From NCBI GenBank assembly GCA_021813445.1, contig JAKAKP010000147.1, forward strand, positions 1 to 64,000: a stretch of DNA of 64,000 bases, read 5' to 3'. Position 1 is the stretch's first letter; each line of letters begins with the position of its first letter. The stretch is from Deltaproteobacteria bacterium. Its GTDB lineage: Bacteria > Desulfobacterota > Desulfobaccia > Desulfobaccales > 0-14-0-80-60-11. Under the pieces are notes generated by a model. It did no database searches, had not been told where the DNA came from, and saw only the letters and a list, made by a program, of their open reading frames with translations. The position numbers and the translations under genes were made by a program. Below are positions 58,436 to 62,996 of the stretch, in pieces.

Positions 58436-59035
58436 TTAAGGAGCCGCCGCGGTCTGCGGCCGCATCCGCTCTAAGGCCCGGGTCAGCTCCAACAGGACCC
58501 CCAACCCCTGGCGGCATTCCGGACTCCGCATCTGCCAGAGCAGGCCCAGGGGCCCCACCGGTTCGGCCTCCTGCAGACGTGAATTCAGAGCCACATCCGC
58601 CAGCCGGTCCATGAACTGGAGCATCTCTCCGGAGAACAGCTTGCCGAAGATCTTGAAGACCTGCTGTTGTTCCAAGACATCCAACTGGTCGATCATTTTA
58701 GGCACCGCAATTTTCAGGATCGGCTCCATGTCCGCCCACCAGTCGATGAAGTTTTCCAACTGCTCCAAAGCCCAGGAGAGGTACTTCAGGCTGGGGAGAA
58801 GCCTTTTTAAAAGGGCGAAAAAGTCCTCCAACTGGAAGCCGATTTCCACTTCCACCAGTTCTTCCGTCAGCTTCCTGGCCGCGGGGTCCATGAGGATGGA
58901 GAGATCCTTACCCAGATCCGTCAGGGTCTCCCAGGGCCGGGCAAAGACCTCCAACTGCTTTTCCACCCGGGCGACTCCCTCCAGCCTCTCTTCGATGCGG
59001 GCCAGCCGTTCCAGCAGCAGTTCCTCGTTGATCAT
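58436..59035 (-). CDS. DUF1641 protein, partner of SQR-like flavoprotein
   Basis: 199 residues, almost all helical: LLLERLARIEERLEGVARVE, LTDLGKDLSILMDPAARKLT, LEQLENFIDWWADMEPILKI. DUF1641 genes commonly sit beside sulfide:quinone oxidoreductase-like flavoproteins. Here its ATG overlaps the SQR stop (ATGA), so both are made together. Perhaps a membrane-side or assembly partner. Confidence 0.8.
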   Translation of the reverse strand: MINEELLLERLARIEERLEGVARVEKQLEVFARPWETLTDLGKDLSILMDPAARKLTEELVEVEIGFQLEDFFALLKRLLPSLKYLSWALEQLENFIDWWADMEPILKIAVPKMIDQLDVLEQQQVFKIFGKLFSGEMLQFMDRLADVALNSRLQEAEPVGPLGLLWQMRSPECRQGLGVLLELTRALERMRPQTAAAP

Positions 59036-60303
59036 GGCCGCTTCCTCCTGAGGGGCATCTCAATATCCGGCGACAAAATACCCCGCACTTTGCCGGCCAG
59101 CACAAACTGTGTTTCCAGGGGCAGGTGGCTGCCCTTGAGCATCAGGTTGTAATAGACCCACCGGAACATCATCTTGCCGACGTAATTGGCGAAGCTTTCT
59201 TTGAGCAGGTCCATGGGGCCGAGGCCCGGAAAGGGGAATTTACCCGGCAGGGGCTCAATTTTGTAATTGAAGTCGAGAAGGGACCCCTTCTCGTAACCGG
59301 TGACCACCAGTCAGGTGGCGTGGCCATCGTAATCGGGTAAGGGCGGCTGGCCATCGATTTCCCGCTGCAGATTTTTAATGATGGTGTCAGCCTCGTAGTG
59401 GGCCACGGCCCCGGCCTTGGAAGTGGGCACGTTGGCTGCGTCGCCGATGACATAAATATGATCGAAGTTTTTGGCCTTCAAGGTGTGGTGGTCGGTGTCC
59501 ATATATCCCATGGGGTCGCCCATACCGCTGTCGATGATGCACTGGGCCCCGAAATTCGGCGGGATTGCCACCAGGAGGTCGTAGGGCACCTCCTCGCCCC
59601 CGTAAGATTTGATGATCTTCTTCTCCCCCTCCACCTGGGCGATCTGGTAGTTGGTGGTCACCTTGATGTTCTTCTGCTCGCAGATATGCCCCAAAATGCC
59701 GGCGGCCACGGGTTTGGTGAAGGCCGCGCCCAGGGGGGTCACCAGTTCGATCTCAATGTTTTTCCGCACGCCGTTGACGCTGAAATACCAGTCGGCCATG
59801 AACGCGAATTCCAGGGGGGCCACCGGGCATTTGAAGGGCAATTCGGCGATATTGATCACCACCCTGCCCTTATCGAAATATTTCAGTTTGTCGCAGAGGG
59901 CCACTGCGCCCTCCTGGGAATAGAAATTGTGGATGTTCCCCCCCATCCCCTCAGCCATACCCTCCACTTCAGCGGGCATAATGCGGCAGCCGGTGGCGAT
60001 CACCAGCCAATCATAGGGATAGGTGTCCCGCTTGGTCTGCACCTCCTTCTTAGTCGGGTCGATGGCGGTGATGTCATCGAGGACAAAATTTACTCCCGGC
60101 GGGATATACTTGACCTTGGGTTTGACGCAGTCTGCCGCGGTGTAAATGCCGAAGGGGATGAAGAGCCAGCCGGGTTGGTAGTGGTGCTGCCAGTCCCGGT
60201 CGATGATGGTGATGTCCCATTGGGTCTCGGGTAATATTTTGCGCATTTTGCCGGCAATAATGGTGCCGCCGGTGCCGCTGCCCAGAATTACCAATTTTTT
60301 CAT
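59032..60303 (-). CDS. Sulfide:quinone oxidoreductase-like flavoprotein, candidate selenoprotein (Sec331)
   Basis: 423 residues if the internal UGA (59311-59313) is read as selenocysteine. FAD site LVILGSGTGGTIIAGKMRK, second FAD motif VIATGCRIMP (Cys106), Cys159 in PFKCPVAPLEFAFMADWY, and the third FAD motif HIYVIGDAANVPTSKAG. At codon 331 the text reads PLPDYDGHAT, UGA, LVVTGYEKGSLLDFNYKIEP; relatives have DGHANCF at this place, so UGA lands on the redox Cys that pairs with Cys159. Ninety-two codons follow with the normal family end (PLPGKFPFPGLGPMDLLKES, FRWVYYNLMLKG). A SECIS-like hairpin starts 17 bases after UGA. Start chosen at ATG 60303. It should oxidise sulfide or a related sulfur species and reduce quinone at the membrane. 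Confidence 0.75.
59274..59293 (-). promoter_or_regulatory. SECIS-like hairpin after the SQR UGA
   Basis: In the transcript CGAGAAGG pairs perfectly with CCUUCUCG around the loop GGUC. It starts 17 bases and its loop 25 bases after the UGA, within the distance used by bacterial SECIS elements; the loop begins GGU, as in formate dehydrogenase SECIS. Confidence 0.65.
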
Positions 60304-60332: not shown

Positions 60333-61403
60333 TCAAAGTTCAAGGTTTGAAGTGCAAAGTTCACCAATAAAACATTGGGGGTCCGGGGCCAGAAAATCCG
60401 GGTGGCCCCGGGCCTGGGAATAGGCATAGGCAATGGCCCGGCAGCCCCGGCACTGGGCCCAGCGGCCGCACGAGCCGCAACCTTCCGCATACCGGCTCCG
60501 GTCTCTCAGGGCTTCGAGCACCGGCGAGGCAGCCCAGAGTTCCCGCAGGGAATCCCGGCGCACGTTGCCAATGGGCAGGGGCAGCCTGCGGCAAGGGGTG
60601 ACCGTGCCGTCGGGGAGCAGAGTGAGCCCGGAGACCCCGGCAGCGCAGCCGCCCAGGGCAATGGTGCCGGCATCCTGCCCGGGTGCAGGAAAATTCATTT
60701 GGGAGGCCATGGGATCGCCGGTGGTGATTTCCAAACCGGAAATCCGGAGCCCGGCAATCTTCCCGTAGAGTTCCTGAACCTGCGCCGTGCTCAGCATCTG
60801 GTCCAAGAGGGCCAGGCCCCGGCCGGAAGGCACCAGCCGGGAAAAGCCCAGGCGGGGCACCCCCAGGGAGGCCGCCAGGTCCGCCAGGTCGAAGAAGTCC
60901 CCGGCATTCATCTGGGATAAAGTGGTGTTGAGGGAGACCTGGACCCCGGCAGCCAGCAGGTCCCTCACTCCGGCCACCGCGGCGGCAAAGCTGCCCGGCC
61001 CCCGGATGCGGTCATGAGTCCTTTCCAGCCCCTCCAGGGAAACCTGGACGCCGTCCACCCCCAGATCCGTCAACTTCCGGGCGATGTCCCGGGTGATCAA
61101 GGTGCCGTTGGAGAGGATGTAGACTTCGAAGCCCGTGGCCAACATTCGCTCCAGGATGGCAAAGAAATCTTCTCTTAAGAAAGGTTCGCCGCCGGTGACA
61201 TTAAAACTGGGAAGAAATTGAATACCATAAGTATCTTGCCATTCTTGCACCATTTGTGCCGCGGTTTCTATGGTCGCCGCAATTTCCAAAAAAGACATCT
61301 CATCTATTTTCTTATTATCCTGATAACAGTGCTTGCACCGCAAATTACACCGTTCGGTGAGGTGCCATTGAATTAAAAAGTCGAAAGACTGCGCCACCGA
61401 CAT
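60333..61403 (-). CDS. Radical SAM/SPASM peptide maturase
   Basis: 356 residues. SAM-cluster motif TERCNLRCKHCYQDN (CxxxCxxC), FNVTGGEPFLREDFFAILER (GGEP), GVDGVQVSLEGLERTHDRIR, and a C-terminal SPASM part with many Cys: GGCAAGVSGLTLLPDGTVTP, CRRLPLPIGNV, CGSCGRWAQCRGCRAI, final Cys in DPQCFIG. SPASM maturases modify peptides; a short peptide gene with Cys and two UGA codons lies 126 bases upstream on the same strand. The last residues (LCTSNLEL) come from the TTCAAAG repeat. Confidence 0.88.
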   Translation of the reverse strand: MSVAQSFDFLIQWHLTERCNLRCKHCYQDNKKIDEMSFLEIAATIETAAQMVQEWQDTYGIQFLPSFNVTGGEPFLREDFFAILERMLATGFEVYILSNGTLITRDIARKLTDLGVDGVQVSLEGLERTHDRIRGPGSFAAAVAGVRDLLAAGVQVSLNTTLSQMNAGDFFDLADLAASLGVPRLGFSRLVPSGRGLALLDQMLSTAQVQELYGKIAGLRISGLEITTGDPMASQMNFPAPGQDAGTIALGGCAAGVSGLTLLPDGTVTPCRRLPLPIGNVRRDSLRELWAASPVLEALRDRSRYAEGCGSCGRWAQCRGCRAIAYAYSQARGHPDFLAPDPQCFIGELCTSNLEL

Positions 61404-61452
61404 GAATATTCACCACTAATAAGCTTGAAGTAAAAAAACTAATATAATAAGA

Positions 61453-61500
61453 GCAGATATGGCGAACGGTAATTTACTACCCCGTGTTTGCCATATCTGC
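61453..61500 (-). promoter_or_regulatory. Stem-loop between peptide and maturase genes
   Basis: GCAGATATGGC (61453-61463) and GCCATATCTGC (61490-61500) form an 11-bp stem; inside, GGTA/TACC (61468-61481) may pair. A T-rich stretch follows on the transcript. It may set the ratio of peptide to maturase by partial termination or RNA protection. Confidence 0.55.
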
Positions 61501-61507
61501 CCGCCTT

Positions 61508-61528
61508 TAGTTGCTGAACCAGCAACTA
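61508..61528 (-). promoter_or_regulatory. SECIS-like hairpin after the peptide UGA codons
   Basis: In the transcript UAGUUGCUG pairs perfectly with CAGCAACUA around GUU (or GGUUC if the closing pair opens). Twelve bases separate it from the second UGA and 21 from the first. E. coli formate dehydrogenase uses a similar stem about 11 bases after UGA, also with GGU in the loop. Confidence 0.6.
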
Positions 61529-61648
61529 TTACTTCGATTTTCATTCCTTTCATTTGTGACATACCTTACCAGGATTTTGCACCAACATCTTCTTGATGTT
61601 TTCCCAGAAGGCAGCCTCTTTAGCCAACGCTTCTTTATTTAGCTTCAT
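61529..61648 (-). CDS. Short peptide with two UGA codons, candidate selenium-containing RiPP precursor
   Basis: ATG 61648 follows AGGAGGTGA. The frame reads MKLNKEALAKEAAFWENIKK, MLVQNPGKVCHK, UGA, KE, UGA, KSK, UAA: 39 residues if both UGA are selenocysteine, 32 if the first stops. A charged helical leader and a short Cys-containing C-terminus are typical of peptides modified by SPASM radical SAM enzymes, one of which is encoded next. A family named 'selenobiotic' with its own radical SAM maturase has been described in TIGRFAMs, as I recall; this pair may belong there. UGA positions: 61550-61552 and 61541-61543. Confidence 0.65.
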
Positions 61649-61765
61649 CCTGTCTTCACCTCCTTTCTGTCAGATTTATGCTGGAAAATTAAGCACCAGC
61701 CCCGGGCGTGTCAAGCGGCCGCACTGGCGGCAAGACCGAAGGCATATGGAGGAAAACTGAGGGTG

Positions 61766-61975
61766 TTAAGGTTCTTGCAGACAGGGGGCGGGGGTGTCAG
61801 TCAGCCGGTCGGGCCAGCTGTAGGTGCAGAAATAGGAGGAAGCGTCGCAAAAACAGACAAAGGCTTCATCCAGGGCCAGATAAATGCAGGAATCGCAACA
61901 GGAGGGGAGCTCATCTCTGGAGGAGCCGGGCAGGCTGAATTGCCCGGTGCGGAACCCGGTCAGATCAAAGGTCAT
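61766..61975 (-). CDS. Small Cys-rich protein coupled to the MerR-TPR gene
   Basis: 69 residues from ATG 61975, overlapping the end of the preceding gene by 11 bases. DELPSCCDSCIYLALDEAFV, CFCDASSYFCTYSWPDRLTD, APCLQEP: seven to eight cysteines in a short chain, suggesting metal or Fe-S binding or disulfides. Unknown family. The overlap supports joint expression with the regulator. Confidence 0.6.
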   Translation of the reverse strand: MTFDLTGFRTGQFSLPGSSRDELPSCCDSCIYLALDEAFVCFCDASSYFCTYSWPDRLTDTPAPCLQEP

Positions 61976-62813
61976 GGTCTTCTTCTGCCAGCCACAGGCG
62001 GACGGACTCGGCCCTTTTACTGTCTGGGTCCAGGAGCAGGTATTGACGCCAGTGTTTCCCGGCTTCCTCCAGATCCCCCCGCTTTTCCAGAACCCGGGCC
62101 AGATTAAACAAGGCATCCACGAACTCCGGGTCTTCATGGAGGGCTTTGCGGTAAAACAAGAGGGCATTGTCCAGCTCGCCCCGTTCCTCGAAGATCTGGG
62201 CCAGATTGTAATTGGCCTCCGGATGATCCGGATTGAGGTACAGGGCCTTGCGGTAGGCCCATTCGGCGGCCGGGCCCAGGGTCAGGCGGTGCAAAAGATT
62301 CCCCAGATTGACCAGGGCATTGGGGTATTCGGGTTTAAGGTGCAACGCGGCTTCGTACTTCTCCCGGGCCTGTTCCCACTCCCCCAGTTCCTCCCCCGCC
62401 AACCCCTCGAAAAAAAGCTCCTCCGCCGGGTCCACCGGCGGCGCCGGAACAGAGCCGTCAGCGGCCTCAAACTTGATGAGCATCTGCCCTTCCGGGGTGA
62501 AGGCCTGGTTGTCTTTGCCGAAGACGATCTGGTCCCCCCGGATGGTCACCCGCACTTCGGACAGGGGCTGTTCCAGGTCCGGCAGCAGCGACCGCACCCG
62601 GGCCAGGCATTTTCTGATTTTTCTTAAAGAAGCGCCCTGGTCCAGCAGGGCCTTGACCGTGCGGAAGGCCACCAGGCCCTGAAAATCAAAGAGCAGCTTC
62701 CCCTTTTCCCGTTCCACGTGGGGGATGAGGCCGACACTGTCCCAATAGCGCACCTGGCTCTCGGAGATGCCCGCCAGTCTGGATACCTGCTTCTGGTCGA
62801 AGAGCTGTTTCAT
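61965..62813 (-). CDS. MerR-type regulator fused to TPR repeats
   Basis: About 282 residues. MerR HTH at the start: LFDQKQVSRLAGISESQVRY, WDSVGLIPHVEREKGKLLFD, followed by the helix ALLDQGASLRKIRKCLARVR. From about residue 135 three or four TPRs: EELGEWEQAREKYEAALHLK, AAEWAYRKALYLNPDHPEAN, GELDNALLFYRKALHEDPEF, GDLEEAGKHWRQYLLLDPDS. The frame is open back to 62885 and the start is uncertain. A regulator that senses through protein contacts. Confidence 0.85.
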   Translation of the reverse strand: MKQLFDQKQVSRLAGISESQVRYWDSVGLIPHVEREKGKLLFDFQGLVAFRTVKALLDQGASLRKIRKCLARVRSLLPDLEQPLSEVRVTIRGDQIVFGKDNQAFTPEGQMLIKFEAADGSVPAPPVDPAEELFFEGLAGEELGEWEQAREKYEAALHLKPEYPNALVNLGNLLHRLTLGPAAEWAYRKALYLNPDHPEANYNLAQIFEERGELDNALLFYRKALHEDPEFVDALFNLARVLEKRGDLEEAGKHWRQYLLLDPDSKRAESVRLWLAEEDHDL

Positions 62814-62996
62814 GGCATTATGGGGCTGCTCCATCCTCCCGGGCCGGAGTGGCTCCATTATGGCCTTTGGGTCCACGGCCGTCAAGCCGTTCCCGGCCCG
62901 GCCGCGTCAAAGGAGCAAGCGGGCGAGGCTATCTTGAGTCTGCAGCCAGCCCGTCTTTCTTTTAAGCCCACTTGAGCAAGGCCAGAAATCCCAAAA

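Follow-up and report, generated by a model that had tools for sequence, protein, structure and literature searches.

The stretch of DNA analysed here (the window) comprises 64,000 nucleotides of a Deltaproteobacteria bacterium (contig JAKAKP010000147.1) and carries a short gene for a Lys-rich peptide with two in-frame UGA codons, followed by a hairpin, a second stem-loop and a gene for a radical SAM/SPASM enzyme (Table 1). The original prediction, which gave no strand, had read these elements as a selenocysteine (Sec) peptide with a SECIS-like hairpin and a SPASM partner. All of them (the frame, the UGAs, the hairpin, the second stem-loop and the adjacent SPASM gene in the same direction) are indeed present, and all lie on the minus strand.

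Table 1. Features of the selenopeptide locus in the window (JAKAKP010000147.1).
Feature	Position	Strand	Remarks
Sigma-70-like promoter, TTGACA / 17 nt / TAATTT	61686..61714	-	read by eye, consensus match only
Strong ribosome-binding site of the peptide gene, AAAGGAGGTGA	61656..61666	-	
Precursor peptide gene, 39 codons + UAA, MKLNKEALAKEAAFWENIKKMLVQNPGKVCHKUKEUKSK	61529..61648	-	family of 42 gene copies
First UGA, very probably a selenocysteine codon (Sec33)	61550..61552	-	UGA in 40/42 homologues
Second UGA, very probably a selenocysteine codon (Sec36)	61541..61543	-	UGA in 41/42 homologues
SECIS hairpin, 9 bp in the window (6-bp conserved core), apex GGUUC	61508..61528	-	folding, covariation, bSECIS rules
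Second stem-loop (GGGCAGATATGGC...GCCATATCTGC), T-rich stretch after it; attenuator/terminator-like	~61453..61502	-	between peptide and maturase genes
Radical SAM/SPASM gene, 356 aa, putative maturase of the peptide	60333..61403	-	Pfam Radical_SAM + SPASM
Type III sulfide:quinone reductase (SQR), selenoprotein subtype	59032..60303	-	NF049943; next gene, same direction as maturase gene

The peptide frame opens with the ATG at 61648, continues as MKLNKEALAKEAAFWENIKKMLVQNPGKVCHK and then reads UGA-KE-UGA-KSK-UAA. An equivalent Shine–Dalgarno (SD) sequence of 9-11 nt is found in about two thirds of the members of the peptide family, and TTGAC-type boxes are also visible upstream in three other loci (L011, L013 and L014). 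Upstream of the cassette, and in the same direction, lies a gene of TPR repeats whose start may be a MerR-like DNA-binding region (61965-62885, minus strand); its end is overlapped by a Cys-rich short frame of ~69 aa (CCDSCIYLALDEAFVCFC..., 61766-61975, minus strand). Locus L041 has a similar Cys-rich short frame at the corresponding place, and it too has a MerR-like/TPR gene upstream of the cassette, which might be a regulator. The SQR gene contains a UGA of its own (59313-59311): the score against NF049943 (cut-off 525) is 658.7 bits when this codon is read as Sec, compared with 524.7 bits for the part preceding it. SQR is therefore complete as a selenoprotein, and ordinary gene callers would cut it at that UGA.

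Relatives of the peptide were sought in three ways. A search based on the maturase in the same family of genomes retrieved the peptide, with both UGAs and the hairpin, wherever the upstream region was on the contig. Next, 395 genomes of the phylum were searched with the maturase and, independently, with a peptide profile. Once refined, this search located the peptide in 17 of them; each copy has at least one UGA and at most two, and none of the homologues detected among the 395 has Cys at both UGA positions. All 16 maturase orthologues detected at E <= 1e-70 in the same genomes have the peptide upstream and, conversely, every peptide with enough downstream contig has the maturase. Finally, a DNA pattern consisting of both UGAs and the hairpin apex was scanned over about 85,000 species genomes and returned 58 loci. 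About half of these are true members with leader and maturase, from Syntrophaceae, Geobacteraceae, other Desulfobacterota, many Nitrospirota and one genome titled Chloroflexi, with one further member titled Deltaproteobacteria but classified by the tree as Myxococcota. The other half have neither leader nor maturase and were discarded as chance matches. Protein-pattern scans of viral and genome contigs gave no matches, because the patterns used Cys codons in place of UGA. The resulting catalogue counts 42 gene copies, chiefly from Desulfobacterota and Nitrospirota, and the two-gene unit is present in at least three bacterial phyla.

The family peptide consists of a leader-like half with the consensus KEAxFWxxxKK and of a C-terminal core that is short, C-x-x-U-K-x-U-K-(S/T). 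A RiPP precursor would have a leader and a core and be released by proteolysis; what is seen here is a leader-like half that is conserved, a short core and no conserved protease or exporter near the cassette. The peptide is covered by no family of NCBIfam or Pfam; its all-Cys versions give weak matches to Fe-S and zinc models (Fer4_17, TFIIS). Because standard gene callers stop at the first UGA, the working end of the peptide is invisible in annotation.

Evidence that the two UGAs are read as Sec comes from their behaviour in the family. At the first position, UGA is found in 40 of the 42 copies and the Cys codon UGC in the remaining two (L089 and L087), while UAA or UAG never occurs; at the second position, 41 copies have UGA and one, a paralogue in genome G215 (L084), has UAA. 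G215 has two paralogous cassettes (L097 and L098), one encoding a peptide with UGA then UAA and the other a peptide with Cys then UGA, so that each has a single Sec, at different positions. Since the DNA pattern demanded UGA, stop codon statistics were restricted to the 20 copies found by profile or maturase, which represent a fair sample. Of these 20 copies, 12 end in UAA or UAG (family-wide, the choice is free among UAA, UAG and UGA), whereas among the stop-type codons non-UGA codons account for 0 of 18 at the first position and 1 of 20 at the second (Fisher test against the terminal stop, p = 5e-5 and p = 4e-4, respectively). It should be noted that these p values are only indicative, because the copies are related.

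Conservation extends beyond the UGAs at the protein level. The residue two positions after Sec36 is Ser or Thr in 17 of the 20 copies and is encoded by TCN, AGY and ACN codons; such use of mixed codon families implies selection on the protein. Each U is followed by Lys, encoded by both AAA and AAG; Lys was demanded by the search expression used for the catalogue, and unfiltered translations show it too. Two marks of a Sec codon, namely conserved coding sequence beyond an in-frame UGA and alignment of UGA with Cys, are seen, the latter at the first position in two homologues. In addition, UGA serves as an ordinary stop elsewhere in the window, which excludes general reassignment.

These data bear on a first alternative, i.e. 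that the frame ends at the first UGA, giving a 32-residue peptide, and that the downstream sequence is conserved only as RNA. In its favour, the standard code gives a 32-aa ORF, and nucleotides are conserved around the UGAs. Against it stand the UGA/UGC exchange, the absence of UAA and UAG at the first position, the mixed Ser/Thr codon families and the AAA/AAG Lys codons after the UGAs, the covarying SECIS and the Sec machinery in the genome (see below), so that this explanation can be all but dismissed. Peptides uniformly stopping at the first UGA would have refuted the original prediction, and these did not appear. Judged by sequence, recoding of the UGAs as Sec is nearly certain, and a peptide of ~39 residues with Sec at both UGAs is very probable, even if direct evidence of selenium in the product is lacking.

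The hairpin (TAGTTGCTG-GTT-CAGCAACTA) is 9 bp long and starts 12 nt 3' of the second UGA. Folding gives it a z score of -2.3 by itself and of -3.1 together with the second stem-loop, and among all the TGA triplets on both strands of the window (n = 1839) a perfect stem in the SECIS position is found in 0.6% of cases for >=7 bp and in 0.1% for >=9 bp. A hairpin after a UGA is therefore not rare enough alone, and it is conservation in relatives that decides. In the 20 copies that were not chosen by the UGA-bearing DNA pattern, all 120 cells of the hairpin core are paired. Double changes were observed at 4 of the 6 pairs across 16 distinct sequences, with a covariation score of 0.358 compared with 0.158 in shuffles; this score was reached by none of 500 shuffles, and all the slid control versions failed. 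Bacterial SECIS elements are described as having a loop of 3-9 nt with G in the first two loop positions and a stem of 4-16 bp, 16-37 nt from the UGA (PMC13188914). The hairpin satisfies these rules from both UGAs, its apical GG being located 27-35 nt from the first and 18-26 nt from the second, and supports the SECIS reading of the original prediction. An Rfam scan of the region matched no SECIS family; it returned only a sub-threshold hit (34.7 vs 45 bits) to ctRNA_pND324, a plasmid antisense RNA, over both stem-loops (61440-61531, minus strand), which we regard as a chance stem-loop similarity. Points against the Sec reading are the UAA of one paralogue at the second position and the unusual arrangement of a single SECIS for two UGAs 9 nt apart, whose efficiency cannot be judged.

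Absence of selA, selB, selC or selD would also have refuted the prediction, and all four are present in the genome of the window (SelA, 598 bits; SelB, 364 bits; tRNA-Sec, the selC product, 76 bits; SelD, 371 bits). The selD gene itself has an in-frame UGA and is, with SQR, a further UGA-containing gene of this genome. Of 16 further host genomes, 15 have a SelB above the cut-off, among them the Chloroflexi one and most of the Nitrospirota. As a further point against, some components were not found: SelA in the G013 assembly, tRNA-Sec above the cut-off in G013, G073, G142 and G215, and SelB above the cut-off in the Nitrospirota genome of locus L149 (G413, a chromosome record), though its cassette has two UGAs. 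Incomplete assemblies are the probable reason for these gaps, although this has not been shown; for G413, another decoding route is conceivable as well.

The product of the second gene shows the features of a SPASM enzyme. In 37 orthologues, the radical SAM triad CX3CX2C (C19, C23 and C26) and the SPASM cysteines C253-X12-G-X4-C271 and C309-X2-C312-X5-C318-X2-C321 are invariant, and C344 is conserved in >90%; these ten cluster cysteines make up the complete set of a triad plus seven SPASM cysteines. The AlphaFold model (pLDDT 89.6) has SuiB as its best PDB match (TM 0.73), followed by SkfB (TM 0.62), PqqE, BlsE, anSME and ChlB; of these neighbours, SuiB, SkfB, PqqE, anSME and ChlB are peptide-modifying enzymes. 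The enzyme misses the cut-offs of all NCBIfam radical SAM families by a wide margin, the nearest models by score being ACGX (rSAM_ACGX, 181 vs 400 bits), NirJ2, AhbD and GeoRSP. That the best family-model matches include the non-peptide enzymes NirJ2 and AhbD is an argument against a peptide maturase, as is the lack of an N-terminal extension able to hold an RRE domain. In a tree of 68 sequences, the peptide-linked enzymes are separate from their nearest paralogues and from SbtM, and a single origin for them is not rejected (the Chloroflexi row is unstable). A short candidate substrate gene as a constant neighbour, as seen for all 16 orthologues above, completes the picture. That the SPASM enzyme modifies the peptide is accordingly likely, as a strong inference without direct evidence, and modification at the C-terminal Cys/Sec residues, as originally proposed, likewise remains an inference.

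Two clades are visible. In the larger one, which includes the window, an intergenic terminator-like stem-loop is usual, and most members with a long spacer have a comparable one. The second stem-loop of the window is probably an attenuator between peptide and maturase. Its GCAGATATGGC arm is often found again at the corresponding position in distant members, from both Desulfobacterota and Nitrospirota, a sequence conservation that is unexplained. In the smaller clade (G215, G256, G278, G289 and five Syntrophaceae or Deltaproteobacteria contigs, i.e. L108, L114, L130, L148 and L152) the SECIS hairpin extends into the opening codons of the maturase gene, and in G215 and G278 the terminal UGA of the peptide overlaps the maturase AUG (AAAUGAUUGCCGGUUCGGCAAU).

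The two overlaps of the smaller clade favour a second alternative, according to which the UGAs and the hairpin would be chiefly a selenium-sensing leader controlling translation of the radical SAM gene: in the presence of Sec-tRNA the ribosome would read through, melt the hairpin and open the downstream start. However, in most members, that of the window among them, the genes are separated by a second stem-loop and by tens to hundreds of nucleotides, and in G142 (L093) a YceI gene is interposed. Moreover, conservation at the protein level is seen in the leader half and past the UGAs, and Cys replaces Sec in two members. As the main function this appears very unlikely, while selenium sensing as an added layer of control remains a possibility.

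Beyond peptide and maturase, which are the only constant pair, the neighbourhood varies, and a conserved multi-gene cluster was therefore rejected. Recurrent neighbours are a YceI-family protein with no obvious signal peptide, encoded downstream of the cassette in six loci (L112, L117, L123, L141, L149 and L150; five Nitrospirota and the contig classified as Myxococcota), a thiol peroxidase-like redoxin (G011 and G017) and SQR (the genome of the window, G016 and, by frame inspection, the G017 locus). These neighbours, and the lack of a conserved protease or exporter, suggest a product that acts inside the cell with a redox or metal-related role, which is not proven.

A third alternative sees in the peptide a small selenoprotein (C-x2-U-x2-U) with a redox or metal-binding function and without modification, the SPASM enzyme using it as a partner or having another substrate. 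In its support, selenoproteins commonly have CxxU and UxxU as redox or metal motifs (PMC13188914), the all-Cys peptide gives weak Fe-S/zinc matches, the neighbours are redox genes and a conserved protease or transporter is lacking. The invariant one-to-one linkage with SPASM across phyla speaks against it, as do the shortness of the peptide, its conserved leader-like half and repeated U-K units, and the fact that the nearest maturase folds modify peptides; on balance, we consider it unlikely.

The explanation that best accounts for all the data, and a likely one, is a two-gene selenopeptide cassette encoding a SPASM-modified Sec peptide, with a probably intracellular product. The genes, the UGA/Cys exchange, the covarying hairpin, the Sec machinery and the peptide–maturase linkage are shown by comparative sequence evidence; that the enzyme modifies the peptide, at which site, by which chemistry and for what role of the product is inferred. 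Under this model, the very strong ribosome site of the first gene would drive synthesis of a Lys-rich peptide of ~39 residues, whose leader-like half is probably helical, and SelB would insert both Sec residues, directed by the one downstream SECIS hairpin. The leader would most likely dock on the product of the second gene, a radical SAM enzyme whose SPASM domain would hold two auxiliary 4Fe-4S clusters, and oxidative modification would most likely take place at the repeated (U/C)-K units, with the selenolates in contact with one of these clusters. The outcome could be, for instance, a cross-link of the seleno(thio)ether type or a ring resembling a seleno(thio)oxazole, the reaction not being decidable from sequence. 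The product would be a redox-active or metal-binding selenopeptide, presumably intracellular given that the cassette is accompanied by no protease or exporter. The original reading is thus supported, except that selenium in the peptide, SPASM modification and leader cleavage are not shown.

A bolder version of this reading, which we hold only tentatively and would not presently favour, is that the cassette defines a new selenium RiPP class in which one SECIS gives two Sec residues and the SPASM enzyme turns both U-K units into a heterocycle or cross-link containing selenium (or else a metal site of Cys and Sec), and in which, in one clade, the SECIS placed on the maturase start couples selenium supply, precursor read-through and maturase synthesis.

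As for known systems, the hairpin resembles the confirmed SECIS of E. coli fdhF, whose GG lies 21 nt after the UGA: both are small hairpins with GGU at the apex ~20 nt after a UGA, and the GCAGGUCUGC apex found in L069 and L074 is identical to that of fdhF. It differs from fdhF-type elements in that a single hairpin seems to serve two UGAs spaced 9 nt apart and, in one clade, extends over the start of the next gene. With thioether maturases (PapB/ranthipeptide, SuiB, SkfB) the enzyme shares the fold and the cluster layout, i.e. SPASM with two auxiliary clusters, but identity is only ~16-21%, an RRE-type N-terminal extension is lacking, and the substrates are natural Sec peptides without a conserved Asp/Glu acceptor in the core. 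Precedents for the inferred chemistry are PapB, for which binding of a Sec-substituted substrate at an auxiliary cluster and formation of selenoethers have been shown (PMC10470005), and the formation of a seleno(thio)oxazole by SbtM (PMC11002830). A natural Sec substrate raises the question of why selenium is fed to a radical SAM enzyme, and of how one SECIS serves two adjacent UGAs.

The closest parallel is selenobacteriocin (SbtA–SbtM, TIGR04081/TIGR04082), the sole Sec RiPP in a 2026 inventory of prokaryotic selenoproteins (PMC13188914), which likewise combines a short ribosomal precursor with in-frame UGAs, an adjoining radical SAM/SPASM maturase and Desulfobacterota hosts; both systems occur together in some genomes (G073, G137, G165, G215 and G263). 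Identity with it was nevertheless rejected. TIGR04081, the model of SbtA with its SGUG-type core, matches none of 28 members and nothing in the genome of the window, and four orthologues of the maturase score 145.8, 137.4, 118.7 and 151.1 bits against TIGR04082, all below the cut-off of 350 (that of the window, 146 bits, has 356 aa vs 516 model positions). The SbtM proteins form their own starred branch in the tree, and the precursors differ: in SbtA a hydrophobic leader, KxLAGLxxAGLxAG, is combined with S-U-G-G repeats, whereas the peptide of the window has a Lys-rich EAxFW leader and C-x2-U-K-x-U-K. With no TIGR04081 match, sequences unlike SbtA and no NCBIfam or Pfam coverage, this is the same kind of system but a different family. 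No paper describing it was found in the open-access literature searched, and a description in subscription journals is not excluded. Since the cassette matches no described selenopeptide family, it offers new selenium chemistry to test. In all likelihood it represents a second, independent Sec RiPP-type system, with a precursor unrelated to SbtA, found mainly in Desulfobacterota and Nitrospirota and, in this study, never without at least one UGA.
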